DNA of 64,000 nucleotides, from assembly GCA_964036195.1 (NCBI GenBank), contig OZ038453.1:868001-932000 (forward strand), read 5' to 3'. The notes under the pieces are model-generated. The model was not told the origin of the DNA. It worked only from the letters and a program-made list of their open reading frames with translations, and did no database searches. A program made the translations under genes and the position numbers. The stretch is from Sphaerolaimus hirsutus (taxonomy: Eukaryota; Nematoda; Chromadorea; Monhysterida; Sphaerolaimidae). Positions 6,026 through 59,044 of this stretch are shown here, piece by piece; the stretch's first letter is position 1, and the number at the start of each line of letters is the position of its first letter.

Positions 6026-7182
6026 CAACGATGGGTAAGTTCTCCAAAAAAAAACACTTTCTGTGTTTTGAGTTTTTCAAAAATGAATACCTGTGTTTTG
6101 AGTTTTTTTTTCTCGGAAAAAACTTGAGTAACTCTGTTTTTATTTCTGTGTTTTTTGTAAAAACTCGAGTTTTTTGAGTTTTTTACTAAAAAACTCAAGA
6201 TTTTCCAAAAAAATTATGATTTATGGCATTTCGATGTGGTCACAGTGGTTTTCTTATAAAATATTGGTTTTGCTCATGTTTTAGCACCACATAACATCTG
6301 TGTATTCATTCAAGTGTCGAAAAAGTCCATAAAAATGTCCAGAATGAGGACATCCACATCACAACACCAGCATCAACAAAATGCCCAGGAATGACAATTT
6401 ACGCAGTACTCCAAAATTCTTCAATGGATGTGCACTGTATGGAAAGCTACAAAATTGATTTTAACTACAACTACTGTATTACCTTGAAATGGGGGTTTAT
6501 GATTTCACCAGCAAATTTTGACAGGGGGGCTTATTTGAGGGGGGGTTATTATTTTGTCAGAAAATTTCATAAGAATCATGGTAAATAGTAGGCATTTACA
6601 TACCCAAAACAGGTTATAAATGTACAAATAGGATATATTTGAAATAAATGTGTAGATAGCTGCACAATGTAGTACAGTCTATGTGTAGCTGAGATTCAAA
6701 TTAGCAGTAATAAATACACCATATACATTGAATAATACATGTACATCATCCCAGAGGAAGGTATTTGGAGGGGCTTATTATTTTGCCATTCCATTTTGAA
6801 AGGGGGTTAATTCGAGGTCATATGGTATACTGAAACATGTTGAAACTTAAATTGTCAATTCCACCAGGATATGTGCAATTGTGCATGCCATCTTAAATTT
6901 CTTCTTTGTTCCATAATAAAATATGAATACATATACTATACATGCATATCTTATCTTGTTGAATTAGTTTAGCTGAATTCATGAGAATTCAACCACTTCG
7001 CCGAAAAAACTCAAAAAACTCAAAAAACTTTTCTGTGTTTCCGTGTTTCTGTGTTCTCCAAAAAAAACTCATTTGAGTTTTGAGTTTTTCAAAATTTGTG
7101 AGTTTCCGTGTTTCTGTGTAAAACAAAAACACAGAAACTCAATGAGTTTCTGTGTTCAATTTCTGTGTTCTTTCCATCGTTG
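6026..7182. mobile_element. H4 hAT-like element (keyword ACTCAAAA/TTTTGAGT)
   Basis: 1157 bp with termini CAACGATGG/CCATCGTTG and a perfect 8-bp target duplication GTTATGAG at 6018-6025 and 7183-7190. Both subterminal zones (6040-6210 and 7000-7170) are tiled with TTTTGAGTTTTT, CTGTGTTT and their complements. An F5 element is nested inside. The 8-bp duplication fits the hAT superfamily. No transposase. Confidence 0.88.
6474..6825. mobile_element. F5 element nested in H4
   Basis: About 352 bp flanked by TA, with degenerate termini (CTGTATTACCTTGAAATGGG on the left, TTAATTCGAGGTCATATGG on the right) and internal G-runs. Its interior resembles the F5 copy at 43693-44089. Confidence 0.7.
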
Positions 7183-8072
7183 GTTATGAGAACTGGCCAT
7201 CTTGGATTTTTGAAGGGGTCAATGGCGTGTGCAGAAAAATACGTCTGCGCGTGAATTATATCGAATTCGCGTGCAGACGTATATAAATACAAATATGTAT
7301 ATAAACTTCACCACAAATTCTCTTCTCCACATGAGTAAATTTTCTGGGTGTTTTTCAAAATCGCATTTAACCACATAACATTCTAGCTTTTTAAGCATAT
7401 GTATAAATCCGGGAAAGTAATCTAACCTGACATTTTGAATGTTTGCACCCTGACATTTTGAATGTTCTATACCAAAATAAATAATCTATAGACCATTTTC
7501 GTATTTACTTTTACTGTGATTTACTTATAGACTATACTTTTACTTTTAGATAAGTCTGCACGCGTATTACATAATTCACGTGGCGGACGTATTTTTCCGC
7601 ACACGCGGACTTTATGGACTTGTTGTCTTTTAGAAATCGGTGTCCATAGTGGACTTATTCCCAAATAAATGCTTTTTTCCCAAATAAATGTGCTGGGGAA
7701 GGTGGAATTGTCGACTTTTAGCCCAAAGCTCAATTCAACTTTTTCTCAAAAATGTCAAGTTTGACACTATCGTATAGGGGCATGTGAGGTAAAACAATTT
7801 ATGGAAAAAAATAAAATATGTTCCGGAGTAGCCCCAGATGACGTTTCCGGGCCTAACTCAAAATTATCATATTATAGACTTGTCGACTTTTAGAATTGGA
7901 CACCTCAAATCAATTAATTGGCTCAGACAACTGCAAGCAAGTATAATACAAAATAACACCTGTTTTAATTAAAATTACTCATATTGCGTGCGGTCTTATA
8001 TTTATATCATACCTGTTCTAGGGCATTGGGGCCGTTAAGCAACCCTTAATTGGTCCCAAGTGAAAATGAATA

Positions 8073-8612
8073 CCGTAAATCCTCGAATAAGTCCCCGGGG
8101 GAGTTATTTTTTCCTCAGAATTTTTTGAGGGGGGACTTATTCGAGGGGGGGAGTTATTTCTTCGTCGGAATGGGCCCACACACGCTAGTTGACATCGACA
8201 CCAAATGTCAACTGGTTCCGATCCCAATTCAAAGCTTGCGTTTCAACGACGTTCGTCGGCTCGTCAGCAAGCTTTGAATCGGTATCGGAACCAGTTGACA
8301 TTTAGTGTCGATGTCAACTAGCGTGTGGGGGGGCAATATTGCGTACAATACTTGATCAGTATATCATTGAATGGGGTTAAGTAGGCTGCATAAACGTGTG
8401 AGCCAGAATAGAAATCCCGTAATTCATGCAATAATATCAATGCTAGTGTGCATAAACGGCAAAATAATGAATGATTTTAATGATCATATACATACATACG
8501 TTTTTTATACGTGGACTTTGTTCCCACCCATAAAAGAGGGGGGAGTTATTTTTTCCTCAGTCAGTTTACAGGGGGAGTTATTCGAGGGGGGGACTTATTC
8601 GAGGATTTACGG
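8073..8612. mobile_element. F2 element interrupted by a GTTGAC palindrome
   Basis: Left end CCGTAAATCCTCGAATAAGT after TA, right end TTATTCGAGGATTTACGG before TA. The palindrome at 8175-8332 lies within it. A partial extra F2 tail (TTATTCAAGGGGGGG) is at about 8672-8705. Its inner segment (8480-8540) matches, inverted, 42595-42660. Confidence 0.8.
8175..8332. repeat. Near-perfect GTTGAC palindrome nested in F2
   Basis: About 158 bp. The left arm starts CCCACACACGCTAGTTGACA and the right arm ends TGTCAACTAGCGTGTGGGGG, with matching AACCAGTTGACATTT and CAAAGCTTG words inside. It would fold into one long hairpin with a short loop near 8250. The terminal word CACACGCTAGTTGACA recurs at 13443, 28541, 48888 and 61047. 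Confidence 0.85.
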
Positions 8613-8958
8613 TATTTCTGAAACCGGGGGTGTTATTTCACTAAAATACGCAATCAATTGATTAATAGTAAACGGGATGTTATTCAAGGGGGGGACTTAT
8701 TCGAGCTTTTTGTTTGCTCTTTGTAGCAGATTCAACACTCAGCCATGACAAAATGAAAGGGAATTTTTATAGGTGGTTTTCTTCATAAATACCCCAAAAT
8801 GATGATGTGCGTGTCTAAAAGTTGACAGAAGTGAACAAAAAAACCCCACATGCAATGTTGAAGTTGAAGATCGCAAACAAAAAGGAGGGAACATTTAGAA
8901 ATTCAATTGAACTGAAAAATGTGTAATTGTGTGAATTTATCTGCTACTGAGACTCGGC

Positions 8959-10731
8959 TAGTGATGTAAAGGCACCGGGGCACCGGTGCTGGGTAGGGTG
9001 TCAAATTTCCGTTTCTGTTTTCCGTTCCCGCCTTTCCGTAAGAAAATTTTTTACCTTTCCGTTTTCCGGCAGCCGAAAAATTTTTACCTTTCCGTTTTCG
9101 GCTTTCCGGTAGCTGAAATTTTTTTACCTTTCCGTTTCCGTTTTTTCCGGCCCATTTTTCCGTTTTCCGGCTGAATAATTTTTACCTTTCTGTTTCCATT
9201 TTTCCAGGCCATTTTTCCATTTTCTGGCTCGATTTTCAGTTTTCTGGCATTTTTCCATTGTTTTTCCAATCTGTATTTATCTTTTTCCACTATAGTGTTT
9301 TTAACTACCACGTTCGTCTGTCATTCGCAATTTTTATCTGTATCCAAATCTGTAAAAAACACAAAGTAATTTTGGACACATACTTTGCAGTCCGCTGAGT
9401 ATACTTCTTACTGTTCAGTTACATCAAAGTACACTTTTGCTAAATTCTTATTGTTGTTGTAGTGTATTTTTGCTACCTTTTGATGATTTTTTGTTGGTTC
9501 AGTTAAGCTTGAACTACAACTGAAGTTACTGGCATGATCCATAGTTGCAGAATGTACAGCTACCACAATCAAAGCCAAACAGGCAAACCGGCATGCAGGT
9601 TTTCCTTCTGCAAATTTGTCTATTACTGTGCAAATTTCACTTTATTTTTGCCGTTTCTGTGAAAATTTTGCTTTCCGTTTTCCATTTTCCGGCATTTCAT
9701 TCTTCCGTTTTCCAGCCAACAATTTTTTTTTTACCTTTCCGTTTTCCGCTGAGTGAAATTTTTTACCTTTCCGTTTTCCGTTTTCCGGCAGAAATTTTTT
9801 TTACCTTTCCGTTTTCCGTTTTCCGTAAAGTGAAAAAATTTTACCTTTCCGTTTTCCATAAAAAAAATTTTTTGACACCCTAGTGCTGGGCACCGAAGGG
9901 CACCAGCACCGGTGCTGGTGCGGTGCCCTTGCAATTTTCAGAGGTGCCCTGCCGGTGTCGGTGCCATTTTTTTCAGAATAGCACCGGTGCCGATGCGGTG
10001 TGGTGCCCTTTTTCGAGGGTGCCTTTAGGTGCTGGCACCGGCCAGAAAAAGTGGGGCACCGGGAAAGGCACCGGCAGGGTTGAAATGCGGTTAATTCCAG
10101 GACATGTGTGTTCATTTGAAAAGTGACCCAATCTATTTCATGTTGAACACATACTCACGGCCACTCTTTCATTGTTATTCTTTTGACAAACATAAAAAAA
10201 ACTAGCGATTTAAAACAAAATGAGGAGTTGGATAATAATAAAATCGATGTGTCAGAAAGAATCAATATTGTAAAAATCAAACAAGCGGCCTGGCGGCGCC
10301 TGCGAAAAGCGCATGGCGCTGGTGCTGGCGCCAAACAAAAAGCGCCACGACTCTTTTGGCGTCAAGTGCCATTTTGTTGTGCCACCATTGGTGCTCAGCG
10401 CCAATGCGGTTTGTGCCATTCTGCCCTGGTGCCATAGTTTTTGGCGCTGGGGGCGAGAAAAGCGCCAGGGCACTTTTGGCTCTTTTCACCGAAGTCCTGG
10501 CGGTTTGAATATCACTAAACAAAATTTTACCCGGTGCGGTGCCTTTCGGTGCTAGCACCGGCAGCCAGGGTGCCGGTGCCATTTTTTTCAGAATGGCACC
10601 GGTGCCGGTGCCGGTGCGGTGCGGTGCCATTTTTTGGCCGGTGCCCCAGGGTTTCAGGTGCCATTTCCACGCGATGGGAAAGGTGCCGGTGCGGTGCGGT
10701 GCCATTTATCCCGGTGCCTTTAACATCACTA
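8959..10731. mobile_element. H2 hAT-like element (keyword GGCACCGGTGCC), host of a nested H1
   Basis: 1773 bp with termini TAGTGATGTAAAGGCACCGG and CCGGTGCCTTTAACATCACT. The 8-bp duplication has one mismatch (GACTCGGC at 8951-8958, GACACGGC at 10732-10739). Subterminal zones 8970-8993, 9883-10075 and 10530-10715 are dense in GGTGCC/GGCACC. An internal block at about 10285-10510 uses GGCGCC instead, the keyword of H3. The overlapping open frames are translations of these words. Confidence 0.82.
8994..9882. mobile_element. H1 hAT-like element (keyword TTTTCCG) nested in H2
   Basis: 889 bp, termini TAGGGTGTCAAA/TTTTGACACCCTA, with perfect 8-bp target duplication GTGCTGGG (8986-8993 and 9883-9890). 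Both ends are tiled with TTTACCTTTCCGTTTTCCGG words. It is the inverted relative of 15666-17621: matching segments are at 9540-9620 and about 9225-9290, but there is no reverse-transcriptase fragment here. Confidence 0.93.
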
Positions 10732-15665: not shown

Positions 15666-17621
15666 TAGGGTGTCAAAAATTTTTTTTTACGGAAAACGGA
15701 AAGGTAAAAATTTTTCACTTTACGGAAAACGGAAAACGGAAAGGTAAAAAAAAAATTTCTGCCGGAAAACGGAAAACGGAAAGGTAAAAAAATTTCACTC
15801 AGCGGAAAACGGAAAACGGAAAGGTAAAAAAAATTGTCGGCCGGAAAACGGAAAACGGAAAAATGAAATGCCGGAAAACGGAAAACGGAAAGCAAAATTT
15901 TCACGGAAACGGAAAAAAATAAGATGAAGTTAGCACGGTAATAGACAAATTTGCAGAAGGAAAACCTGCATGCAGGTTTGCCTGTTTGGCTTTGATTGTG
16001 GTAGCTGTACATTCTGCAACTATGGATCATGCCTGTAACTTCACTTGTAGTTCAAGCTTAACAGAACCAACAAAAAATCATCAAAAAGTAGCCATAGTGC
16101 CATAGGAAAGGAAACACTATGACAATTTCACAGTCTAGAAGCAGTGGGAATCACTGATGACCCCTATGCAATTGATGACAACATTGCAGAGGAGATGATA
16201 ATAAATAGCATAAAATTCAACGACAACAACAAACGATACTATATTGACTGGCCGTATAAAGAGAGTATCAGTGACCTGCCCACAGGAAAAGCAGAAGCCT
16301 TGGTGCACTTTAAATCACTGATAAGAAGATTCAACAAAGATCCAAACTTATTCAAACAATACAGGAAAGTTTTGGATGACCAACTAGAAAATGGAATAAT
16401 TGAGATCTGTGACAACAAAACAGACAACAAGGGGATTCATTACCTGCCACACCAGCCAGTAATCACGCCGGGCAAATTGACATCATGCAGAATCATGTCT
16501 GATGGGTCGGTAGGTAAGCCCAGTTTCAACGAGTGCCTTTTTAGAGGACCAATTACAACACCATAGCACTGGGCCTACTCCTGAGGTTCAGGGCAGGCAA
16601 TCTAGCATTAATTGCCAATATTGAAAAGGCATTTTTGCAAATAGGATTGCATGACCAAGCTAGAGACTACACACGATTTTTCTGGCTGAAAGATGCCTCA
16701 AAACCAGTAACTGAAAATAACTTAATAGTACTTTGTTTTAAACACATACTGTTTGGACTTGTCTGCAGCCCAGCAATTTTGGGAGCAGTCATAAAATACC
16801 ATTTAAATGTGACAATAAACAACATGAATGAATATGAAGAAAATGAAGGGGAATGAAACCAGTTGGCAATGATAATAAACAACATTTATGTCGATAACTT
16901 CATCATGAGTGTCACGAATGAAGTTGAAGCTTTAGAACTATATTACAAAGTCAAGGCTTTATTTAACCAATGTTCTATGAACATGAGGGAATGGCTGTCA
17001 AACTCCAGATCAGTCATGAATGAAATAGCAGAAAACGACAGGAGTCCAAAGGTGAATAAAATTGTTGCAGTAATGGGCATGAAATAAAATCACCGAACGG
17101 ACATGCTGGCAATATCAACACCAAAATTGCAAATTGACAGCATCACAACACCAACCAGACAAAACTTGACTAAATTATTGGTGTCAGCATATGACCCAAT
17201 TGGGTTCACAGCACCTGTTTCACTGACCCTGAAATCCCAGTTGTCAATGCTGCTCCAAGAGACAAAAACAACACAATGGGATGAGCCAATTGAAGATAAA
17301 TACAGATTGGAAAAACAATGGAAAAATGCCAGAAAACTGAAAATTGAGCCAGAAAATGGAAAAATGGCCTGGTAAAACAGAAACGGAAAGGTAAAAATTT
17401 TTCAGCCGGAAAACGGAAAAATGGGCCGGAAAAACGGAAACGGAAAGGTAAATAATTTTCAGCTGCCGGAAAACGGAAAACGGAAAGGTAAAAATTTTTC
17501 AGCTGCCGGAAAACGGAAAACGGAAAGGTAAAATTTTTTTGGCTGCCGGAAAACGGAAATGTAAAAAATTTTCCTGCGGAAAGGCGGAAACGGAAAACGG
17601 AAACGGAAATTTGACACCCTA
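15666..17621. mobile_element. H1 hAT-like element carrying a BEL/Pao fragment
   Basis: 1956 bp, termini TAGGGTGTCAAAAA/TTTGACACCCTA, perfect 8-bp duplication GTGTAGGG (15658-15665 and 17622-17629). Units B and E keep the empty site GTGTGTGTAGGGTCC. Arrays 15685-15910 and 17375-17605 are tiled with CGGAAAACGGAAAGGTAAA, so AAACGG occurs more than a dozen times. Segments 15941-16090 and 17297-17370 match the 8994-9882 copy inverted; the retrotransposon fragment lies between them. Confidence 0.94.
16144..17290 (+). pseudogene. BEL/Pao-type reverse transcriptase fragment, broken
   Basis: What is seen: the first frame (16144-16566) has RYYIDWPYK, HYLPHQPV and KPSFNECLFRGP, in the order found at the start of BEL/Pao reverse transcriptases. 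A frameshift near 16565 leads to a second frame with IANIEKAFLQI and RFFWLKD (about 16605-16700), then SPAILGAVIKYHL and a stop at about 16854. The third frame has NIYVDNFIMSV (about 16885) and MREWLSNS, then a stop near 17085. The fourth has SAYDPIGFTAPVSLTLK and TTQWDEPI. Known of the family: motif A normally has Asp where this copy has Asn (IAN), and motif C is YVDD where this has YVDN. Protease, RNase H, integrase and LTRs are absent. The copy is inactive and sits wholly inside an H1 element. Family assignment is by motif recognition only. Confidence 0.85.
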
Positions 17622-43650: not shown

Positions 43651-43692
43651 AAAGTTTATTCAGAGATTTTTAATTAAAATACAAGGTAACTA

Positions 43693-44089: not shown

Positions 44090-44091
44090 TA

Positions 44092-44252
44092 TACCATATT
44101 TCCTCAAAATACCCCCAGGTGGTTTACGTTTTCATAGTTGAAATTTTGAGGGGGTTATTCAAGGGGGATTATAATTTCACCAGAAATTTTTTGAACTCCC
44201 AGTACTAATTTGTTGTTTGTAATGTACGCAGACCTAAAAAAATGCAACAAAA
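44092..44252. mobile_element. F1-like fragment, one end only
   Basis: CCATATTTCCTCAAAATACC, then GTTTACGTTTTCATAGTTG and CAGAAATTTTTTGAACTCC as in F1. The opposite end is missing. Confidence 0.6.
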
Positions 44253-44762: not shown

Positions 44763-44770
44763 CAACTATG

Positions 44771-44940
44771 TAGGGTGTCAACTTTCCATTTTCCATTTCT
44801 GTTTTCCAGAGGAAATTTTTTACCCTTTCCGTTTCGTTATCTGGCCGATGAAAATGTTTACCCTTTCCGTTTTCCGGCAGCTTAAAATTTTTACCCTTTC
44901 CATTTTCCATGTTTCCATAAAAAATATGTTTGACACCCTA
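44771..44940. mobile_element. H1 mini-element (unit C)
   Basis: 170 bp, TAGGGTGTCAACT to ATGTTTGACACCCTA, perfect 8-bp duplication CAACTATG (44763-44770 and 44941-44948). Interior has TTTACCCTTTCCGTTTTCCGG words only. Confidence 0.92.
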
Positions 44941-45212
44941 CAACTATGGATATTAGTCAAAATTTTTGCCCCTGGGATAGATAGATAGAAAGCTGACTGG
45001 CATCCAGGATAGATATATAGCTGGGTGATTCAGGGGGGGGGGGCGATTTGTTATTTATGTGCCTATATACTTATTTCAAGCTATTTTTCACCTGTTTTTA
45101 TCAAATTTTCTCTCTTTTATTTCTTCTACACCTTGAAAAAACCAGCCCCCCTGATCTTTCTCCAGTAAAGCAATTTACTACCTACTGTAAATACTCTACT
45201 AGTACAACTGTC

Positions 45213-45881
45213 TAGGGTTGGGACGATATATCGTATCAAATATTGAATATTGGATATCGACTATTTTTTCATATCGAATATTGATATCGAAAATTTTGAA
45301 AAAATATCAAGCATTTTTTCGATATTTTTCAATATTCTTCCCTTCCCTGGCCTGACCTATTGCACATTTAGAAAGTTATTTTGAAGGCAGTTATCAAAAA
45401 TTCTGTGCACATGCATGCACTTTGTCATCACATGACATGTATTTCCATTTTACCAGTTGCAACCACCTCTAATCTTGTGCAGATGCAATCACAAATGTCC
45501 ACGTCAGAGTATGTGCCATGGCACTGGCACCATGGTGCATTTTCTTTACTACATCCATCAAATTTCAGGGTGTGGGGTGAGTTTATGTAAATTTTATGTG
45601 AATTTGTACAATCTACTCTTCAGTAAGGATATGATCAATTATGTTTGTGACCAAATGGAAATACAATATGCCACTCAAGATATGCCTTGCCTTAGGAAAA
45701 GCAAAATATCGAAATATCAAAAATATCGAAATATCAATATCAAATATCGAGCATATCTTCAGATCAAATATCGATATCGAATATCGAGGGTCCATATTGT
45801 ATCGATATCGAATATCGAGTTCCAGAAAAAAATATCGAATATCAAATATCGATATCGAAAAGTCATATCGTCCCAACCCTA
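45213..45881. mobile_element. H6 hAT-like element (keyword ATATCGAT), unit C
   Basis: 669 bp, termini TAGGGTTGGGACGATAT/ATATCGTCCCAACCCTA, perfect 8-bp duplication CAACTGTC (45205-45212 and 45882-45889). ATATCGAATATCGATATCG arrays at 45225-45340 and 45705-45870. The 182- and 103-codon frames on opposite strands translate these arrays (RYRISNI-like words) and are rejected. Confidence 0.93.
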
Positions 45882-46262
45882 CAACTGTCACATTGTTTTT
45901 AAGGGTCGCTATTGGAGGGGTCAAATTTTATTTTGCTATTATTCACAAAATAGGTTTATAAGAACATGCAGTACAATAGCTGAAAATAGGCAGTTAGACA
46001 CATGATTCCGTGATTTTGGAGGTGAATACCTATAAAAAGGCATGCAAATAAGCGTTTTTCAGCAAAAATTTGGGTATACTTTCTGAAAAATCGTTTCAGA
46101 TAGCTAGATCCCTTTGTTATGTCGGGGGTTTATGTTTTTCTGTTTTTTTTTTATGTTTTTCTCTGGGGGTCACACTATTACAGAGGGTCGCATAAAACTC
46201 GCACTACATGTACAAAGGGGTCTCACCATTGGTTGGATCGCTTATTGGAGGAGGGTCATAAT
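45882..46262. other. Unassigned, possible diverged F6-type pair
   Basis: GGGTCGCTATTGGAGGGGTC at 45902 is mirrored by GGATCGCTTATTGGAGGAGG at 46236 in direct orientation. No termini are defined. Confidence 0.35.
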
Positions 46263-46882
46263 TAGGGTTGGAAAAAAACGTGTTTTCTAACTCCTTGTTT
46301 TTTAAAAGCTACCAGATATGGTTATGGGTCCGCATATATAGGTACTTTAGACAACTGGCAGTACTTTGTGATGTTATATATGACCATATAATGGCTGTGG
46401 AGCCATATGAGAGCGTTATAGTGGTACTTTGTGTCAAAAATATCCATTTTTTGTCAACATGTTCATATATCGCCTTATAGTCGAATGTTCGTGACTTCAG
46501 GTGAAGTTTGGCATGGAATAGTGATCAAACAAGGTTATAAAATAAAGTTGTTACTTTAGTGATCTTACACACTGTGGATATACATGTAAGCACTTTACCT
46601 GAATATTATATGCTACAGCAACATATGACGGCTTATTAACCCATGGTAGCATATAGAAATGGATGCTTTGATACAAAAAATGCCACAAAACCAATGAAAA
46701 CAGCTACCAATGTCAATTTGTGTGTGAAATTGCGTGCTTGCACACAGAAAAATCATGCAAAATACCTAGTGCTGAGTACTAAAAATGTTGGCCAATGTTT
46801 AAAACATTTTGGGCATCATGTTTTTTTGAAAACAACGTTTTTTTAAATAAAAAACGTTTTAAAAAAACGTCAGCCAACCCTT
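46263..46882. mobile_element. H8 hAT-like element (keyword AAACGTTTT), unit C
   Basis: 620 bp, TAGGGTTGG/CCAACCCTT, perfect 8-bp duplication GTCATAAT (46255-46262 and 46883-46890). AAAACGTGTTTTCT at the left and GTTTTTTTGAAAACAACG at the right. The centre is unique, with no recognised coding. Confidence 0.9.
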
Positions 46883-47424
46883 GTCATAATAATTGAGTAT
46901 TTATGGTATATATCAATATAAACTAGTGAAAAATTCACATTCCACCTATCACACACTCACAAAATATTTTGCTGTGATGTTTCAGATAAAAGACACATTG
47001 TCATCACTGAAAAAACACGTTCACAGCTCGTGACGACTTTTAGCCACTTTTCTGTGTCACTACTATATGTGCGTGACGATCACAGCCATGAATTTGCTGT
47101 TCATCACACTCAAAATCAAATGTTCTCGATTTGTCGGAATTTTGTCGGAATCAAAAACAACTTCCGGCGACAACAAAAAAATGCAGTGGTCTATCACTCT
47201 TCAACGACCAAGACAATATGAATGAATATTCACATGCACATACCCCTCAGTACTATATATACTCGACCACCTTTTCTCAAAAATATGGAACTTAACAATC
47301 GAGTTATGAAACTTTTTAAAGTGACATTTTTGTTTTTTGTCGTCACCCAAAAATCCGTGTAAACGCTGCCTAACGAAAAAATAAAACACCTTCAATTAGA
47401 AGAACTACGGTGCCAATATACATA

Positions 47425-47836
47425 CCGTATTTACTCGAATAATTTCCCCAGGGAATTTTTTTTTCGTCAGACATTTTTGAGGGGGGAATTATTCAAGTGG
47501 AGGGATTATTATTTCATCACAATTTTCAAGCATGTTTTTATCACACTACATACACATGTATGCCCTGTTTCCATCGGTAGTGCACATAACATTGCATCTT
47601 TGCACTCCGATGTACTGCATTTCCATTCCATGAATCAAAGTACACACCGATCTTTTGCATGCTTTCACTTGATCGATTCGTTTTTGTTAAAAGAATGTGA
47701 ATGATCTACCTTCCGTCATTGGGGGGGGGGGGAATTATTCAAGCGGGGAAATTATTTTTTCCTCACTCATCTAACACTGGGGAATTATTCGAGGGGGGAA
47801 TTATTCAAGTGGGGGGAATTATTCGATTAAAAACGG
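47425..47836. mobile_element. F3 element (unit C)
   Basis: TA-flanked CCGTATTTACTCGAATAATT to TCGATTAAAAACGG, with a 12-base G-run at 47721-47732. Confidence 0.85.
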
Positions 47837-48083
47837 TAAATTGTTTTTCCACATTGGCGCATGTGCACTTCAAAATGGCCCCAATACTACCTATTTTCTC
47901 GCGTTTATTACCATTTTTGTGTGTGAAAAAGCGTATTCTCTACTACGAATTTCACGAAAATTTCTGACGAAATAATAACCCCCCCCCCCCCGTCGAATAA
48001 ACCCCCCCTCGAATTACCCCCCCCCTCAAATTTTGCTGGCGAAATAATAAACCCCCATGGGGGTATTTCGAGGTAATACGGTA
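47837..48083. mobile_element. F5 right half (unit C)
   Basis: Starts at about 47880 (CCAATACTACC) and ends GGTATTTCGAGGTAATACGG before TA. The left half is absent, as at 24537. Confidence 0.65.
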
Positions 48084-48286
48084 TATATGGCGTACAGTGC
48101 TATTATTTCCAGGATTTTAGATTTTTAATTTTGTAGATAATTGACAGTATTAGGACTGATTTACATATAAAATATCAGTGTGCTTGAAAAATGCTTAATT
48201 GTGGCCTACATGTGAACCGGGTTTACATGCGCACCGGCACAGACACCTCTAAATCCCCCCCCCGTTGGAATGATGCGCATCGTGTA

Positions 48287-48511
48287 TAGTGATGTAAAGG
48301 CACCGGGGCACCGGTGCTCCGGTGCTGCGCACCGAAGGGCACCAGCACCGGTGCTGGTGCAATGCCCTCGCAATTTTTAAAAGTGCCCTGCCGGTGCCGG
48401 TGCCATTTTTTTCAGAATAGCACCGGTGCCAGTGCGGTGCGGTGACTGTTTTTTCGGTGCCCCAGGGTGCCATGTGCCCCTTTCACGCGATGGGAAAGGT
48501 GCCGGTGCCCC
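48287..48511. mobile_element. H2 element, 3'-truncated (end of unit C)
   Basis: TAGTGATGTAAAGGCACCGG start, GGCACCGGTGC array, no right terminus. Confidence 0.75.
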
Positions 48512-49047
48512 CCGATCCGGTCTACATGTGCACCGGGTTTACATGCGCAGCGAGTTATCGCCGTTTTAACAACTATGGTAATTACGATCAAAATAACATT
48601 TTACCATCGCATCAAATTTGTTTGTCAAATGAACATAATCTGAACAAATCTACTCAATGTGCCAACATAAGTGACTCAGAATGAGCTATTTTCATGAAAG
48701 ATTATCACTTCGAGTATTTTAATTAGGTAGGGCCATTCTAATGTGAAAATATTGTGTGGGATGACAAACGGCACTATTTTTGGAGAAAACTGATCGAGGG
48801 GCATGCTTCTAAGCGGCTACGCATAATGCACAGATTCGATTTGCATATGCAAATGCGAGCGCGGCAAATGACTGCATTGGGCCAACACACGCTAGTTGAC
48901 AACCCAAATTTGTGTCAACTCAATGTCAACTAAATAACACACAAAAAAATTTTAAAGCTTCACACTTAACAGAAACAATAAAACTTTTATTTGATTATAT
49001 TTTATGGCCTGAGTGAATTCCTGCCTGGGATGAGACGATAGTCCAGG

Positions 49048-49236
49048 CGGCAGTCCCAGACCCTGTAAAAAGCCCTGTAAAATGTCAAATGTCATGCAAA
49101 GTGTCTAAAGTCATGGAAAATGCCCTGCAAAATGGCAACTCGGTTGCCATTTTGCATGACTTTTGACACTTTGTATGACATTTGAAATTTTACAAATGAT
49201 TTTGAAATGACGGCTTTTTACAGGGTCTGGGAGTGC
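49048..49236. repeat. P1 palindrome (unit D), expanded variant
   Basis: Right arm has an insertion reading TTTGAAATTTTACAAATGAT (49187-49206), shared only with unit E. Confidence 0.82.
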
Positions 49237-50150
49237 CCCCTGGCACAACCCCGGATTGTCATCTGGCGACCTAGATTGAACTCAATCGAGTTGACATCCA
49301 GTGTGTGTGGCGCCTTAAGGGGCTGTTTCAAACGTTTCTGTTTTCGTTTCCGCGAAATACGTAAAAAAATATTTCTAGTTCATTTCATAAACGTCTCGAA
49401 GCGAAAGTGGTGAACAATGTGAGAAAAATGGATTCTAGTTCTAAATCTATGTTTGATCACTCTAAATCTCAATTTAATCACCCCACTATTTGTTTCTTTA
49501 CATGCCTATGGTAAGAGTATTTCGCAAAAGGAAACTCAAATGCGATTTTTAGTAAATACAATATCATCTTCACTTGTCATTTGCTTACACAACTCTGAAA
49601 TACCCACAGTACCGAGTACTTTTTCCTAATTTAAAAAAAAAGTATTTAGATCAGGTATCTATATTGGATCTAAGTATCAACTATGAGTACAATCGAATGT
49701 ACGATCGTTGTGTACACTTGCAATGGATCAGGCCATTGCCACGCCATACTTGTGCTGCAGATTTATTCCAGCCGAGTGATTAAATTGTCCATTTTTAACC
49801 AGGTCGTTCAATTCCTTCTTTCCGGCCGGGATTCCGGCCAACCTGGAAATTTTTTGCGATTTTTGAGAAAAAAAGAAATCTAATTTCCTGATAAATATTT
49901 GTAATTATTTTCGATTGTATGTATTTGCATACAGTTTATGTGTCGGTATTGACGGCGCATACACTAGTTGACACGTGTGTCAACTGGGCAGTGCCAAGCC
50001 CTGTAAAGTGTAAAGTAAAGTGTCAAATGTAAAGTCAAATGCAAAGTAAAGTGTCAATTGTCATGCAAAGTTCAGTAATAACATCTTTTCGTTTTTGTTT
50101 TGATTGGCACTTTACATTGCATTTGACTTTACGTTTGACACTTCACTTTA

Positions 50151-50673: not shown

Positions 50674-50954
50674 GGCCAGATTTAATACTCCCTACAGATT
50701 TGTAGGGTAGGGCGTACGCCCGACAGATTTTTTAAAGTTTAGCCGCATCGACGCACATGCACCGAGAGCAAGGCGGTTCGTAAAATACACGAAACTATCC
50801 CTTAAGGTCGCCGATATTGCAATATGACGGTTATCGCTTCGATTTTGGCTCGGAAATCACGATTTCGTCATTTCGTGGCCGTCTGCCAAACTTTAAAAAA
50901 TCTGTCGGGCGTACGCCCTACCCTACAAATCTGTAGGGAGTATTAAATCTGGCC
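50674..50954. mobile_element. CAGGGGCC element, complete, private to unit D
   Basis: 281 bp, long termini GGCCAGATTTAATACTCCCT and AGGGAGTATTAAATCTGGCC. Inner arms TAGGGTAGGGCGTACGCCCG mirrored. Unit C has GGACCGGCCCCAGGCGTG uninterrupted. Duplication is CCAGG or CAG; it cannot be fixed because the end word is GC-symmetrical. Confidence 0.9.
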
Positions 50955-51193
50955 CCAGGCGTGTGTGTGGGGCCCAAACAACTCACGACTTTCTGACTGC
51001 AGTTATGAATGCCCTCGTCTGTTTGTCGTACTTGTGTGCCATTTTTGCCGGCTACGCTTGTTTTTGTTGCTTTCGGGAAAAATTGACGAAATTTAGCGCT
51101 GGTACGAATGCTGAAATTTTTATTAAAAAAATCAGTATTTATGTGTACGTTTCCTTGTATTTTTCGGGGGAAAACGATAAATGGTTTGAAAAT

Positions 51194-51484
51194 GGCGCCA
51201 TACACTGGATGTCAACTGGTTTTGGTGTCAAGTCAATTTTGGTTCAATTTAGGTCGCGGGAGAATTTTCAAGTGCACATGCGGCAATGTTGGAAAGAATC
51301 AATATTGCCATGTGCATTAATTGAACATAGTTTCATAGCCGTCAACGAAACTCTGAATGGAGACGAGTTGACATCCGATGACTCCTGATGTCAACTGAGC
51401 TGACCGGTTTTTACATTAGGTTAATGTGTTGAACTAAAATCGAGTTGACACCAAACCCAGTTAACATCCAGTGTGTGTGGCGCC
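51194..51484. mobile_element. G1 GTTGAC inverted-repeat element (unit D)
   Basis: As 17844-18134, bounded by GGCGCC. Confidence 0.75.
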
Positions 51485-51681
51485 AGTGGGCCAGTTTGGA
51501 AAGTGTAAAAAGTGTTTTTGAATGTGTTAAAGGACTTTTGACACTTTGCATGACATTAGATATTTTACAGGGTTCGGGAGTGGATCCTGGTGGAAATTGC
51601 GCCAGTGGATAAGTGGCAAGAAAAGGTGATGCATCTTCAATGTTAAAATCAAAAGACGAGGAAAATGAATTAATGCAAATA

Positions 51682-51995
51682 CCGTATTTGCTTGAATAAT
51701 CCCCCTGGGGCATTATAATTTCCTCAGACTTTTTTGATGGGGGAACTATTCGAGGGGGAAATTAATCAAGGGGGGAAATTACTATTTCGTCAAACTTTTC
51801 GAGCATGTTTCGATCAAGTCATTTCACGACATGTGCATCATTAACACACACAATAAAGTGCCATTTTTGTTAAAATTAGACACAACAAATTGATCAAATC
51901 TCTTAAGGGGGAATTATTCAAGGGGGGTCTATTTTTTCCTCACTCGTCTTACAGGGGGGGAATTATTTAAGGGGGAACTATTCAAGCAAATACGG
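51682..51995. mobile_element. F4 element (unit D)
   Basis: TA-flanked CCGTATTTGCTTGAATAATC to TATTCAAGCAAATACGG. Confidence 0.85.
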
Positions 51996-52391
51996 TACTT
52001 GTCAACTTGCTGAATTTCCCCATGGTTGTGGACTGGCGGTAAGATTTCAAGTACTTAATATGGAGACACTTTATTTTACTTAACTTGAAAGTTACTGTAC
52101 ACTTTTACAATTCACATATTTACCTATTGAGAGTAAAGATATTTATAATCTTACCTTGATGAAGTCTCGGGAAAAGTTTGTGTCTAATTGATACAACTGA
52201 AGTAAATTCACATCGGTAAAGTTTCTCTTAAATATTCAAGGCTGAGCGTATTTTCCGTATTTTAATTAAATTTTCTTACACTGGTTTCACGTTTTACTGA
52301 TTGATGGGTCAAATGTACCTAATTTAATGATGTGCATCTACGTAAAAGTAATAAACATTGGACAAAATTTAAATAGTTTCAGTGCCAATTA

Positions 52392-52799
52392 CCGTATTTC
52401 TTCTAATATAAGGGCGCCCTTCTATTTTTCGTCAATTTTTTTAACCCACCCTTCTATTGGAGACCGCCCTTCTGTTTTTTCGTCAACTTTTCAGTAATTC
52501 TTTTTCATGTTCTACCAAGGTTTTTCAAAGTGTTACGTCACAGACAGTTCATAGAATGACGATACATAGAGTTCAGTACATTCAACATTTGAGGTTAACA
52601 TACCTAGCACCAAATCAATGGACCAAAGCCACTCAATCATAGCATCCGCTGATATATTTTCATTTTTTATGCACTTGGCACAATTCCAGCACTTTGTGTA
52701 CCTTCTATTGGAGACCGCCCTTCTATTTATTTCGTGGCCCAAATTAAGTCGAAAAAGTGTACCTTCTATTAGAGACGTCCTTCTATTAGCATAATTCGG
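52392..52799. mobile_element. F6 element (unit D)
   Basis: CCGTATTTCTTCTAATATAA to TAGCATAATTCGG, TA on both sides. Confidence 0.72.
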
Positions 52800-53252
52800 T
52801 AACAAGATAATTGCAGGGTTGTCAAAATTGCAGATAATTGCAGGGTTATCAAAATTGCAGATAATTGCAGGTTATCAAACTTTGATGCGGCCGAAATTTT
52901 CCGCAACGTAAAATTGGGCCCACCTTTTTTGACGTCGGTTGCACTCCCGACGGCAGTTGTAACATTTTTATGCGATCAAATGGCACTAAATGGAGAAAAC
53001 TAATAAACCCATTAATCGAACTGGCGATAAGAAAGTGTCAAAAAATGGCGCCAAAATTCCCCGAAATAATTGGCGCATTTTGGCGCCACACGGCATCCAA
53101 TAGAACGGCACCCCCAATAGAACGACACCCCCGGTAGAACGGCAGGTAGAAATCATGTTGGGAGTGTGCCAAAACACAAAAATATTAAACACATTAAAAG
53201 CATCGATACACCGTTTTTATCAATACACTGTGTGCCTAGGGTTCGTGGTAAG

Positions 53253-54292
53253 CAGGGTTGGTTTTATAAAAATCATTTGTATACAAATTGTATAAAAATT
53301 GTATAAAAATGTATTTTTTTAAATTTTATTCTTGTTTCATTTTATTTTATTCCAAAATAATAATAAAATAATAAAATGGACCATTTTACAAAAAAATTAC
53401 AAAAATTTTACATAAATTTTGCAAAAAATCAGAATCCTTGCATGCAAGGTCAGAAAAATGTGATAATTTTACCTAAACATGAAAAACGTGTGACAAATTT
53501 TTCCATTACTTTGCAAAAGTTGCATGCAGTAGGTATTGTTAGCTAGTTGTAAGTGTTAAGTTACAGTTATCGATAAGAGTGGTTTGCATTTTCAGTAGAA
53601 GGATTACTGGAGTGTGCTGGGCGCATTTGTAAAACATCATGCAAAGTGTCAATTGTCATGACAAATGTAGTAAAGAGTCAATTGGCATCTCAAATGTCAA
53701 GCAAAGTATAATTGCCATGACAAATGTTGTGCAGAGTGTAAATTGTGTATCTGAATCTTATGTTTTGGTATCCAAACCTTATATTTTGGTATCCAAATCT
53801 TATGTTTTTGTATCCAAATGTACACATAAGATTTGGTTACAAAAACAACAATATTTGGATACAAAAGATAAGATTTGGATACAATTTGCTTTACAGTTTC
53901 CACTTCCATATTTGTCATGATAATTGACACTTTACTTAACATTTTCATGAAAATTGCCACTTTCCATTCCATTTCATATGACATTTTGACACTTTACATG
54001 GCTTGGGACTGCCCCAGCTCCGCGAATGAACAGGTTGAACTATAAACAACAGAAAAATATTCTTTACAAAAAATATGAATTTTTATACAATTTTTACAAA
54101 AATATGAATTTGTATACAATTTTACAAAAAATTTACAAAAATTCGAATTTTTATACAAATGTTATTTTTATTTTGAAATTTTTTATTTTATTTTATTTTA
54201 TTCTTCAATTTTCCATTTTATTTTAATTTATTCTTCAATTTTCCATTTTATTTTATTTTTTATTTTTATTTTCTGAGTGTTTGCCAACCCTG
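53253..54292. mobile_element. H7 hAT-like element (unit D)
   Basis: Same insertion as 41090-42129, duplicated with the unit, including the imperfect duplication GTGGTAAG/GGTGTAAG and the 21-bp tandem repeat at about 53759-53821. Confidence 0.85.
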
Positions 54293-54434
54293 GGTGTAAG
54301 GCAATGCCATTTTTTCAATTTTCAAACACTACAACGTATCATGTATCACGATCGGGGGGAGGGAGGGGGGGGGGGCAAAACGTGAGCTGAAATTCCTTTG
54401 TTTAAAAATGGGCGTTACTTTTTTCTGCAATTAA

Positions 54435-54642
54435 TTGAGGCGTCCAATTCTAAAAGTCAACAAGTCCAAAATATGAAAATTTTGAGTTAGGCCCGGAAAC
54501 GTCATCTGGGGCTACTCCTGCACATTTTTCATAATTTTCCATAAATTTTTTGACTTCACATGCCCATATGGCAAAGTACCAAATTTGACATTTTTAGGGA
54601 AAAATGCAAAAAATTTGGGCAAGAAGTCGACAAGTCCACTTA
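54435..54642. mobile_element. TTGAGGCGTC element, truncated (unit D)
   Basis: As 42271-42478; one GTCGAC word has become GTCAAC. Confidence 0.7.
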
Positions 54643-54894
54643 CCGTAAATCCTCGAATAAGTCCCCCCCCCTCGAAAAACTCCCCCCCCCCTCGAATAAC
54701 TCCCCCTCTAAGCAGGCTGAGGAAAAAATAACCCCCCCCCTCGAATAACTCCCCCCTATTTTATGGGTGGGAAAGAAGTCCACGTATAAAAAAACGTATT
54801 TATGTATAGTCGGCAGACATGATACTATACAATGAGTCGCATGATGTCATATCATGCACGCTGTATCCAACCCGTAGAACTCTGTTTTGGTGAC
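54643..54894. mobile_element. F2 element, right end missing (unit D)
   Basis: As 42479-42730 with changed C-run lengths. Confidence 0.65.
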
Positions 54895-54980
54895 TCGTGC
54901 TTACGCATATACGGAATGAAACTATTCAATTGTGCCCGCACAATTCAAACCCCCGTCAAAGTGTAGTTGAGTTTTTTGGC

Positions 54981-55053
54981 ATGATGCCATCCAAGCGTCG
55001 TCTGGATCTGAATAAATACAAAGCGGGAACGTCGGGATCCAATATAACGGCGG
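54981..55053 (+). other. Candidate first exon with splice-donor-like end (unit D)
   Basis: Duplicate of 42817-42889, unchanged in the coding part (MMPSKRRLDLNKYKAGTS) and in the GCGG|GTAAGT boundary. Confidence 0.2.
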
Positions 55054-55856
55054 GTAAGTTTAGGCCCTGTTTACACGGATTTTTGGTGACGACAAAAAAT
55101 TTGTGTTGTCACAGACATTTTTTTGCAAAAATTGGTAATTTTACATGCGTGACGACCAATCGGCCTCGATAAATTTGGTTGTCACACATGTAAAATCAGC
55201 CTCGATAAATTTTAATACACAAAAATGCAAACAAGATGTCATTTTCATACCTTTATGAGGCCATATCATAGTCTCAACAAATTTGTTGTAATATAGTGCC
55301 ATGCATTAATGGCATTTTGTGAACATTTTACATGTAAATAGGTAAATGTAAATTGTAAATAGGTGACGGCACTTATAGAATGTTGTCACAAGCATAGCTC
55401 GTTCACAGCTTGTGACGACACATTTGAGTCGCACCTGTAAGTGAAGTTCAATTTTGTCGGAGTTTTGCAGATCAGCCTCGCTACCGAGGCCGATTTTCAT
55501 GACTCCGACAATTATTTTCACAATCCATATCTTGCTCATTTCTCAACCGATTTGATCCATTCAACACTTGTAATGATCTGGAAAACCTGTAGATTCCATT
55601 TTTGTTGTCTGATTTATGATGGCTGAACTGGTTAAGCTGGTGTAAGCCAAGACTTTGCCACACGTTTTTGACCATGCTCAACAATGGCAAAACACACTGA
55701 GACTATGATTTGTTGAGACAAACACACATTTTAAATTTGTTTCACACAGAAACTCAAAAACTCAAAACTCAAATAAGTTTTTATTGGAGTACACAGAAAC
55801 ACATAAGACATAGTAAAGTTTATTCAGAGATTTTTAATTAAAATACAAGGTAACTA

Positions 55857-56253
55857 CCGGTAATTACCTAGAAATACCCCCATGGGGGTTTATTATTTTG
55901 CCAGCAAAATTTGAGGGGGGGTTAATTCGAGGGGGGGTTTTATTATTTCGTCAGAAATTTTTGTGAAATTCATAGTAAAGAATACGCTTTTTCTTACACA
56001 AAAACTGTAATAAACGTGAGAAAATAGGTTATATTGGGGCTATAGAAGTACAATTGTACACAAATGAGTGTGTAAGTGTAGCTGCGATGCAAATAAGTAG
56101 TAATAAATACATCATGTACATTGCATACATGATGTACATCATTCCAGAGGGGGGGTATTTTGAGGGGGGTTTATTATTTCCCCAGCCTATTTTGAGGGGG
56201 GTTATATCAAGGGGGGGGGTTAATTCAAGGGGGGATAATTCGAGGTCATACGG
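55857..56253. mobile_element. F5 element (unit D)
   Basis: Duplicate of 43693-44089. Confidence 0.8.
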
Positions 56254-56934
56254 TATACCATATTTCCTCAAAATACCCCCAGGTGGTTTACGTTTTCATA
56301 GTTGAAATTTTGAGGGGGTTATTCAAGGGGGATTATAATTTCACCAGAAATGTTTTGAACTCCCAGTACTAATTTGTTGTTTGTAATGTACGCAGACCTA
56401 AAAAAATGCAACAAAAAGGTTTTTGTTAAAAGTACTGAAGTAAATGTGAAGTATTGAATTTTTACTCACCCTGAGTATAGAAAGTGTAATGTAGATTTTT
56501 TACTTTTACTCATGAATAAACCTGAGTAAAATACTTGTAAAAACATAAAAGTGAGTATTTTTGGGTAATTTTGCCAGAATTTTGATGCAAAATCACCTAT
56601 TTTCATACTTTTTTTGCCCATACTATTCTTCAAAACCACTTATTCATCCAATTTTTGCCAATTTTCAGCTACTCTTGACTGTATATGTATTTGCTATACC
56701 AAATTTTGATTATTTTTCACTACTTTTAGATTTTTTATTCCTTTTTCCCTTGTAAATGCTGTGAGAAGCTGATATATAAGCCTATCCAACATACATTTTG
56801 TGTACTTGAGTACTTGAAAAAAGTAGGTGTTAAGGTGAGTATGGGTACTTTCTTTCAGTGGAAATGTAAAGATATTTACACAGTACTCGAGGACATGTAT
56901 TTTTCGAGTAAATATAAATGTTTTAACAACTATG

Positions 56935-57104
56935 TAGGGTGTCAACTTTCCATTTTCCATTTCTGTTTTCCAGAGGAAATTTTTTACCCTTTCCGTTTCG
57001 TTATCTGGCCGATGAAAATGTTTACCCTTTCCGTTTTCCGGCAGCTTAAAATTTTTACCCTTTCCATTTTCCATGTTTCCATAAAAAATATGTTTGACAC
57101 CCTA
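56935..57104. mobile_element. H1 mini-element (unit D)
   Basis: Duplicate of 44771-44940 with CAACTATG on both sides. Confidence 0.92.
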
Positions 57105-57374
57105 CAACTATGGATATTAGTCAAAATTTTTGCCCCTGGGATAGATAGATAGAAAGCTGACTGGCATCCAGGATAGATATATAGCTGGGTGATTCAGGGG
57201 GGGGGCGATTTGTTATTTATGTGCCTATATACTTATTTCAAGCTATTTTTCACCTGTTTTTATCAAATTTTCTCTCTTTTATTTCTTCTACACCTTGAAA
57301 AAACCAGCCCCCCTGATCTTTCTCCAGTAAAGCAATTTACTACCTACTGTAAATACTCTACTAGTACAACTGTC

Positions 57375-58043
57375 TAGGGTTGGGACGATATATCGTATCA
57401 AATATTGAATATTGGATATCGACTATTTTTTCATATCGAATATTGATATCGAAAATTTTGAAAAAATATCAAGCATTTTTTCGATATTTTTCAATATTCT
57501 TCCCTTCCCTGGCCTGACCTATTGCACATTTAGAAAGTTATTTTGAAGGCAGTTATCAAAAATTCTGTGCACATGCATGCACTTTGTCATCACATGACAT
57601 GTATTTCCATTTTACCAGTTGCAACCACCTCTAATCTTGTGCAGATGCAATCACAAATGTCCACGTCAGAGTATGTGCCATGGCACTGGCACCATGGTGC
57701 ATTTTCTTTACTACATCCATCAAATTTCAGGGTGTGGGGTGAGTTTATGTAAATTTTATGTGAATTTGTACAATCTACTCTTCAGTAAGGATATGATCAA
57801 TTATGTTTGTGACCAAATGGAAATACAATATGCCACTCAAGATATGCCTTGCCTTAGGAAAAGCAAAATATCGAAATATCAAAAATATCGAAATATCAAT
57901 ATCAAATATCGAGCATATCTTCAGATCAAATATCGATATCGAATATCGAGGGTCCATATTGTATCGATATCGAATATCGAGTTCCAGAAAAAAATATCGA
58001 ATATCAAATATCGATATCGAAAAGTCATATCGTCCCAACCCTA
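57375..58043. mobile_element. H6 hAT-like element (unit D)
   Basis: Duplicate of 45213-45881 with CAACTGTC on both sides. Confidence 0.93.
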
Positions 58044-58424
58044 CAACTGTCACATTGTTTTTAAGGGTCGCTATTGGAGGGGTCAAATTTTATTTTGCTA
58101 TTATTCACAAAATAGGTTTATAAGAACATGCAGTACAATAGCTGAAAATAGGCAGTTAGACACATGATTCCGTGATTTTGGAGGTGAATACCTATAAAAA
58201 GGCATGCAAATAAGCGTTTTTCAGCAAAAATTTGGGTATACTTTCTGAAAAATCGTTTCAGATAGCTAGATCCCTTTGTTATGTCGGGGGTTTATGTTTT
58301 TCTGTTTTTGTTTTATGTTTTTCTCTGGGGGTCACACTATTACAGAGGGTCGCATAAAACTCGCACTACATGTACAAAGGGGTCTCACCATTGGTTGGAT
58401 CGCTTATTGGAGGGGGGTCATAAT

Positions 58425-59044
58425 TAGGGTTGGAAAAAAACGTGTTTTCTAACTCCTTGTTTTTTAAAAGCTACCAGATATGGTTATGGGTCCGCATATA
58501 TAGGTACTTTAGACAACTGGCAGTACTTTGTGATGTTATATATGACCATATAATGGCTGTGGAGCCATATGAGAGCGTTATAGTGGTACTTTGTGTCAAA
58601 AATATCCATTTTTTGTCAACATGTTCATATATCGCCTTATAGTCGAATGTTTGTGACTTCAGGTGAAGTTTGGCATGGAATAGTGATCAAACAAGGTTAT
58701 AAAATAAAGTTGTTACTTTAGTGATCTTACACACTGTGGATATACATGTAAGCACTTTACCTGAATATTATATGCTACAGCAACATATGACGGCTTATTA
58801 ACCCATGGTAGCATATAGAAATGGATGCTTTGATACAAAAAATGCCACAAAACCAATGAAAACAGCTACCAATGTCAATTTGTGTGTGAAATTGCGTGCT
58901 TGCACACAGAAAAATCATGCAAAATACCTAGTGCTGAGTACTAAAAATGTTGGCCAATGTTTAAAACATTTTGGGCATCATGTTTTTTTGAAAACAACGT
59001 TTTTTTAAATAAAAAACGTTTAAAAAAAACGTCAGCCAACCCTT
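58425..59044. mobile_element. H8 hAT-like element (unit D)
   Basis: Duplicate of 46263-46882 with GTCATAAT on both sides. Confidence 0.9.

Follow-up and report, generated by a model that had tools for sequence, protein, structure and literature searches.

The stretch of DNA analyzed here, referred to as the window, comprises 64,000 nucleotides of the nematode Sphaerolaimus hirsutus (contig OZ038453.1, positions 868,001 to 932,000). It contains ten transposon insertions, and our subject is the arrays of short words tiled near the ends of these and of related elements elsewhere in the genome. All ten are hAT-type elements, with 8-bp duplications, short inverted ends and word arrays near the ends; they are 170 to 1,956 bp long and nonautonomous, and a search with a profile of four hAT C-terminal lineages revealed no transposase remnant inside any of them. 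Their coordinates, proposed in an initial annotation of the window, were all borne out, with eight perfect duplications and two imperfect ones (8959 and 41090).

Element A, 6026 to 7182: hAT-type, nonautonomous; ends CAACGATGG; perfect duplication GTTATGAG; words AAACTCA / ACACAG.
Element B, 8959 to 10731: ends TAGTGATG; duplication GACTCGGC/GACACGGC with one mismatch; word CCGGTGCC; element C nested inside.
Element C, 8994 to 9882: nested in B; ends TAGGGTGTC; perfect duplication GTGCTGGG; word ACGGAAA in one direction.
Element D, 15666 to 17621: ends TAGGGTGTC; perfect duplication GTGTAGGG; word ACGGAAA in one direction (15/0, 0/12).
Element E, 26703 to 27880: ends TAACGATGG; perfect duplication ACCGGCAC; word ATTCGAA.
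Element F, 35214 to 35900: ends TAGTGATGG; perfect duplication GTTGGCAC; word GGCGCCA.
Element G, 41090 to 42129: ends CAGGGTTGG; duplication with two mismatches; top word TATACAA; second copy at 53253 to 54292.
Element H, 44771 to 44940: 170 bp; ends TAGGGTGTC; perfect duplication CAACTATG; word ATGGAAA, probably a CpG-decayed ACGGAAA; second copy at 56935 to 57104.
Element I, 45213 to 45881: ends TAGGGTTGG; perfect duplication CAACTGTC; word ATATCG; second copy at 57375 to 58043.
Element J, 46263 to 46882: ends TAGGGTTGG/AAGGGTTGG; perfect duplication GTCATAAT; word AAAACGT; second copy at 58425 to 59044.
Second copies of G, H, I and J, 53253 to 59044: inside a 10.95-kb segmental duplication (99.3%).

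Since this segmental duplication (38788 to 49730, repeated at 50951 to 61891) carries the last four elements along, their copies are not independent, and the window holds ten insertions rather than fourteen. In an empty-site test, the flanks of each element were joined and searched for a match across the junction. Empty sites were recovered for element E at 48091 to 48386 and 60249 to 60545 (97 to 98% identity), for element D at 30226 to 30437 and 62755 to 62966 (about 95%) and for the nested element C in B-related copies at 27939, 48287 and 60446 (87%). Their recovery for three of the ten elements supports an 8-bp target-site duplication of the hAT type. The joined-flank search gave no junction-crossing match for five of the ten (6026, 8959, 44771, 45213 and 46263), and only weak and gapped matches for 35214 and 41090.

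The element calls were compared with chance in a pair scan of 270,732 bases, consisting of the window and 22 fetched loci (L009 to L030) that had been picked via a hAT domain or as copies of a TAACGATGG element and thus are not a random sample. Perfect 8-bp duplications combined with perfect 9-bp inverted ends gave 40 pairs in the true register, whereas all six wrong registers gave none; when a single mismatch in the ends was allowed, the numbers were 22 and 0 to 4. One-mismatch duplications with perfect ends (6 pairs in the true register, 0 to 13 in the wrong ones) did no better than the control, and four of the elements kept rest on imperfect duplications (L017:2798, L018:4511, and 8959 and 41090 in the window). 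Terminal inverted repeats that are short and of the YA..G type characterize the hAT superfamily; they were present here, in a scan that itself presupposed that pattern.

Words were counted in 59 elements. The scan had given 68 pairs, from which three duplicate window copies, six pairs whose end words looked like chance and one false pair of 4.9 kb were removed; 41090 was entered by hand. The most frequent subterminal 7-mer exceeded all 60 dinucleotide shuffles in 55 of the 59 elements; the four failures were L014:6864, L015:4257, L019:2361 and element J (46263), whose word is weak in the window copy, its count not rising above all shuffles. Inside the elements the same 7-mer occurred only 0 to 3 times in 56 of the 59, and the three exceptions (L017:2798, L025:1106 and 8959) hold nested elements. 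The observed/expected ratio of CpG was 1.54 in the arrays, 0.84 in the interiors and 0.86 in outside sequence.

The initial annotation had sorted the window's ends into four groups, within which unrelated words were said to be tiled in both orientations at both ends. The four groups represent a small part of the end words present in the genome, among which are also TAGGGTTCA, CAGAGTTG, CAGGGGTCT, CAAGGACGT and TAGGGCTCG. Mixed directions are indeed seen in many classes, but elements of the TAGGGTGTC class carry ACGGAAA one way along their whole length (e.g., 12/0 at one end and 0/14 at the other), so that the two ends differ in orientation. Nor are GGCACC and GGCGCC unrelated, being one base apart, and the ATGGAAA of old TAGGGTGTC copies looks like a CpG-decayed ACGGAAA.

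Three words in the fixed slots of one end scaffold

Elements found outside the window and ending in CAGAGTTG have a single end scaffold in common, which carries one of three words, ACGT, GCGT or GTGT.

ACGT slots, CAGAGTTG ends: L012:4539-5804 and L025:1805-3296.
GCGT slots, CAGAGTTG ends: L014:3472-4225 and L027:3146-4278.
GTGT slots, CAGAGTTG ends: L018:2333-3104.

Between L012, L014 and L018, which represent the three words, 15 slots at the two ends agree in position to within 1 to 3 bp. Counted from 0, they lie at 32, 38, 44, 84/85, 114/115, 126/127 and 132/133 from one end and at 13, 21, 62, 68, 74, 95, 105/106 and 139-142 from the other, with one additional GTGT at 52 in L018. In a multiple alignment of five elements, slot identity was 0.96 to 1.00 within a class and 0.75 or 0.50 between classes, where the spacer remained 0.81 to 0.93 identical; the exceptions (slots of 0.71, 0.71 and 0.54) concern the left end of L025, which carries a decayed slot. 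The different-word pair L014/L018 (spacer 0.93 and 0.89 at the two ends, slots 0.75 and 0.75) is as alike in its spacer as the same-word pair L014/L027 (spacer 0.90 and 0.90, slots 1.00 and 1.00), and for L012 and L018 the values were 0.85 and 0.86 in the spacer and 0.50 and 0.50 in the slots. By a strict pairwise count, GCGT occupies 15/15 slots in both L014 and L027, GTGT 13/15 in L018, with the remaining two displaced by one base, and ACGT 13/15 in L025 and 10/15 in a worn copy in L015. Among single ends, GCGT fills 7/8 slots at L015:757 and ACGT 5/7 at L019:4610. Three mixed-word copies were fetched: L031 is a GCGT element in which one slot reads ACGT and two read GCAT, and L032 and L033 are diverged.

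The word classes might instead have arisen by ordinary drift, each being a separate hAT family that built its array independently and has only hAT-typical ends in common with the others. hAT ends do follow a general pattern, and no alignment extending through the ends was seen when CCGGTGCC elements were compared with GCGCC elements, or TAACGATGG elements with CAACGATGG elements. However, the spacers of the CAGAGTTG scaffold, and those of the TAGGGTTCA tips described below, align between elements with differing words. For CAGAGTTG this explanation is refuted, and as a general account of the arrays we consider it unlikely.

The same classes were seen genome-wide. A left-end pattern with three four-letter slots left free gave 7,342 matches with at most 2 mismatches, compared to 4 for the reversed control, and slots were read in the first 100 listed, all of them exact matches located at C1:0.27-12.67 Mb. 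The same word filled all three slots in 77 of these 100 (ACGT in 31, GCGT in 24 and GTGT in 22), compared to a mean of 9.2 and a maximum of 20 when slots were permuted between elements. The right-end pattern gave 3,954 matches with two letters free per slot and 4,217 with both slots wholly free, with no match for either control. In 85 of the 100 right ends listed for the wholly free pattern, one word stood in both slots (ACGT in 36, GTGT in 25 and GCGT in 24, counted by hand), one of the two slots being inverted. Pairing of the nearest ends on opposite strands, 200 to 2,500 bp apart, between the 100 listed left ends and the 100 right ends listed for the two-letter-free pattern yielded 70 elements. 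The majority word of the left end was found in both right slots in 65 of them, in one slot in 4 and in neither in 1 decayed copy, and all five slots were equal in 56, whereas shuffling of the right ends gave a mean of 18.7 and a maximum of 31. The CAGAGTTG elements thus combine fixed slots with replacement of the whole array, discrete classes and agreement of the two ends.

Decay of CpG can convert some of these words (ACGT to ATGT or ACAT, GCGT to GTGT), and its traces are visible: in the 100 listed left ends, 24 of 300 slots fell outside the three words, 19 of the 24 being ATGT, ACAT or GCAT; GTGT/GCGT was read in 4 of 100 listed right ends; and ATGGAAA and ACAGAAA accompany ACGGAAA in old copies. 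A change from ACGT to GCGT is nevertheless not a CpG change, and decay of GCGT would give GCAT about as often as GTGT, whereas the listed left ends held 75 GTGT and 5 GCAT. At the 100 listed right ends, read with free slots because the two-letter-free pattern is unable to show GCAT, the upright slot held 30 GTGT and 1 GCAT, and the inverted slot 25 and 1. We thus conclude that the CAGAGTTG words are not products of CpG decay, which as an origin of the word classes appears very improbable.

A second scaffold behaves similarly. The TAGGGTTCA family, with ends TAGGGTTCAAACG, gave 5,998 pattern matches and none in the control. In 88 of the 100 listed ends, the slot pair was GGGAT+GGATC (54), GGGAC+GACCG (23) or GATAT+ATATC (11); the other 12 are small variants, one of which, GGGAT+GGACC, may combine the two GGGA classes, and none of the 100 mixes the GATAT class with the other two. 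The tips of element I of the window (45213) align with TAGGGTTCA elements carrying the words ATATCG, ATCCCG and GTCCCG, and near the tip the slots of the different classes line up to within about one base. The TAGGGTTCA tips thus repeat the replacement of words in fixed slots. Deeper in the TAGGGTTCA array the number of units varies, so that in-place change and unit turnover both occur in this family.

Two earlier proposals, that the arrays change faster than the termini and that the words form discrete classes, are thereby supported: the word differs while ends and spacer persist in CAGAGTTG and at the TAGGGTTCA tips, and both scaffolds yielded discrete classes in the genome scans. A third, that arrays are remade by slippage, fits the deeper TAGGGTTCA arrays and fails for CAGAGTTG. 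In its general form it states that replication slippage or unequal exchange repeatedly rebuilds arrays out of one mutated unit, and motif arrays of VANDAL transposons reportedly contract, expand and evolve synchronously (PMC10398659). In CAGAGTTG, however, unique spacer that aligns between elements divides the slots, and the slot coordinates are kept at both ends, which argues for replacement in place; slippage as the main process is accordingly improbable in our judgment.

Transposase remnants and a proposed mechanism

The hAT dimerization domain (PF05699) had 28 matches in the genome, 22 of them within 20 fetched regions. Its remnants sit inside elements of four end/word classes, with one lineage per class, as follows.

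TAGGGTGTC/ACGGAAA class: five remnants within detected elements.
TAACGATGG/TTCGAA class: eight remnants and a weak ninth.
CAGAGTTG/ACGT class: one remnant, L012.
TAGGGTTCA/ATATCG class: two remnants, L017 and L018.

Further dimerization matches lay outside any pair detected at that stage (L011, L013, L016, L019 and L025) or in outer or doubtful pairs (L022 and L015). For the RNase-H fold with catalytic acidic residues that also marks hAT transposases, a search with PF14372 gave no match anywhere in the genome and equally none in 14 control genomes and so is uninformative.

The N-terminal BED zinc finger of the hAT superfamily was found in one element, C3:40743-46748 (6,006 bp, both ends CAGAGTTGTT, duplication CCTTGGCG). 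Its zf-BED match scored 21.6 bits (cutoff, 20.6) with two pieces joined by hand, and its Dimer_Tnp_hAT match scored 61.9 bits. The BED finger, hAT-like pieces and dimerization region are spread over several frames and are presumably exons of a putative transposase gene. The array of this element is of a TACGCG type, representing a second CAGAGTTG scaffold, and the ends of L027:1162-1768 (607 bp) were judged by eye to be similar.

A search with the BED piece gave 29 matches, of which 10 fetched regions spanning 14, along with L011 containing 2, were read; six loci had GCGT ends, one had an ACGT end and three had no readable end. In five loci a near-constant interval separates the GCGT end from the BED piece, and on this ground end and piece were taken as one element. 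Five of the six GCGT-ended loci are 28-30/30 identical in BED exon 1 and the sixth 20-21/30, while the single ACGT-ended locus is 18-20/30 identical to the GCGT-ended ones and the TACGCG element 11-15/30 identical to all of these. In these few loci, the differences between BED remnants fit a pairing of word and DNA-binding domain. No second BED exon with a readable ACGT, GCGT or GTGT end occurred among the BED-piece loci read.

Given these patterns, we consider it likely that the tiled words are transposase binding sites placed in slots that are set by the geometry of the complex, and that they are rewritten as binding specificity shifts. Each word would be the predicted site for the BED zinc finger of its family's transposase. 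The geometry of a multisubunit transposase complex would set the places of the sites, so that slot positions and terminal inverted repeat would change slowly, while the specificity of the BED finger would set the letters within the slots. Once a lineage shifts to another preferred word, copies would be selected for their ability to be moved, and this selection would rewrite the slots at both ends in place as the spacer drifts; the outcome would be classes that a given transposase tells apart despite look-alike ends. Binding of the word by the BED domain, and rewriting driven by selection through transposition, are what we infer from these footprints.

Several observations weigh against this proposal. 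In the window's own TAGTGATG and AACGATGG groups, no in-register word replacement was seen (comparisons other than AGCGCC with GGCGCC were judged by eye). In six of the 100 listed left ends of CAGAGTTG, two of the words occur together, which in four cases may reflect CpG decay, and the GTGT end L019:1493 retains 3/7 left slots and then breaks off. The pattern behind the TAGGGTTCA matches was built to fit three known words, with some slot letters fixed. The thousands of copies probably reflect few independent events, namely, two changes in each of two scaffolds.

The remnants add further difficulties. A search with the C terminus of L012 gave 149 matches, and the ends behind 20 of them were read: 1 GTGT (L036), 11 ACGT or worn ACGT, 5 of the second scaffold and 3 unreadable. 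Over the last 53 positions the GTGT remnant is 0.77 identical to the ACGT reference L012, within a range of 0.68 (L041) to 0.98 (L015) for ACGT remnants, and the C-terminal tree, with weak support, does not separate the words. The earlier proposal of one transposase lineage per keyword agrees with the four remnant lineages in four end/word classes; the C-terminal remnants compared here do not sort by word. Divergence of the BED remnants alone does not predict the word either, since the GCGT locus L064 is 20-21/30 identical to the other GCGT loci, which are themselves 19-20/30 identical to the ACGT locus. Finally, the second BED exon, likely containing the recognition helix, was found in the TACGCG class and in copies on C6 and C1 without a readable hAT end.

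Selection might also have acted for a different reason, with elements escaping a DNA-binding repressor of the host or nonautonomous copies that are cross-mobilized or titrating. Escape predicts the same footprint, and a cluster of zf-BED matches at C1:7.47-7.68 Mb could be host genes. On the other hand, nothing found points to a repressor, though no repressor search was made, and an altered site would still need to be bound by a transposase. We regard escape as a rather doubtful explanation.

Returning to shifts of transposase specificity, we see an even chance that the arrays act as a fixed-slot addressing code, in which in-place rewriting splits one transposon family into mutually deaf classes. 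If this is true, the genome holds a natural series of matched pairs of site and DNA-binding domain, in at least two families independently. It would bear on a puzzle of general interest, namely, how specificity can shift without loss of function when a DNA-binding protein has some fifteen scattered sites. As alternative word states coexist in thousands of copies with little change in the spacer, counts could show the direction and order of a switch, as well as its intermediates. A practical rule is suggested as well, that slot spacing and slot letters are separable in hAT ends.

Some candidates were rejected. Ends with AGCGCC and GGCGCC, which match in BLAST at 74 to 78% with many gaps within the arrays, were considered as in-register replacement and dropped, the alignment being gapped and out of register. 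Shared interiors between word classes had suggested conserved bodies with swapped ends; those that were traced consist of a roughly 430-bp C-rich repeat, which is common outside hAT elements and inserted at differing points in elements. This repeat (unit around CCTCGAATAACCCCCCC) is very common, being found at 25250 to 25683 of the window and in many other places, including the inside of several hAT elements. A 4.3-kb TAACGATGG copy at C1:30929300, which had seemed autonomous from split matches, contained only pieces of the transposase C terminus. The TAACGATGG elements of about 1.1 kb in L020, L021, L023 and L024 have an open frame of 111 to 115 codons with the hAT dimerization region, and L056 (C1:12784420-12788100) carries two tandem BED exon pairs, 55 to 66% identical to the C3 transposase, with no hAT end seen.

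Other features of the window and the genome were recorded. Positions 13112 to 63509 are built of local segmental duplications, with shorter common blocks at 13112, 28205, 37197, 49051 and 60713 (95 to 99%), and end-like words CAACTCTG lie in a five-fold repeated block at 14131, 29226, 37720, 49597 and 61759. Two copies of a 794- to 808-bp stretch (3584 to 4377 and 32875 to 33682), which have ends GCGGTTTTT and share the palindromic flank CTGGCCAG, are perhaps another transposon with a palindromic target. An assembly gap of 200 N occupies 23234 to 23433. Elsewhere, seven zf-BED matches (C1:7466186-7488779 and C1:7679975), six of them within 23 kb, are possible hAT-derived host genes, and L019 contains a histone H3 reading frame at 8476 to 9150 (by eye), which points to an animal.

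Comparison with known transposon systems

Subterminal hAT repeats, as well as synchronous change of a motif array with a transposon-encoded protein in VANDAL elements, are known already. Apparently new is that words are replaced in place while the slot scaffold is conserved, and that three states coexist in thousands of copies; no report of such replacement of entire word arrays within hAT ends was recognized in the literature searched, a body which leaves subscription papers and Repbase reports uncovered. Conserved interiors of coral miniature elements (MITEs) (PMC2872659) were considered as a parallel and set aside as a different case.

The elements resemble Hermes, Ac, Tol2, Tag1 and Herves in having short words near both ends, which are bound by the transposase in those systems and are predicted to be bound here. 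The terminal repeat itself is often not bound, as in Ac, Tag1 and the left end of Herves, and different hATs carry different subterminal words (PMC3143072, PMC10368747). In Hermes, the subterminal repeats bound by the BED domains are rigidly phased, both among themselves and relative to the tip (PMC10368747), which would explain the fixed slots. The BED domains of hATs and of CGGBP proteins, their domesticated relatives, differ in preference, most of the preferred sites containing CGG or CGC, which would explain the variable letters, and in four tested hATs the BED motifs match the element's own subterminal regions (PMC8097297). A single genome, that of the coelacanth, holds at least eight distinct preferences of BED-derived domains (Yellan et al. 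2021, PMC8097297). Like the sites of the CGGBP/hAT-19 domains, the words described here are distinct, mostly contain CG and lie near hAT ends; that work measured proteins, and in the passages compared neither slots at fixed positions nor replacement of entire arrays is described (PMC8097297). Unlike the comparisons across elements that these systems allow, we have one scaffold in one genome with three words in the same slots.

VANDAL elements are Mutator-like, encode a VANC protein and make a duplication of about 9 bp. The elements described here have 8-bp duplications and hAT domains, VANC itself not having been searched for, and the resemblance is one of working only. In the VANDAL/VANC system of Arabidopsis, a transposon-encoded DNA-binding protein and a repeated short motif change together (PMC5735166, PMC10398659), giving separate specificities to related elements. 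There the protein is an antisilencing factor and the motif spreads via turnover of tandem repeats, whereas here the words stand at hAT ends and are replaced in fixed slots.

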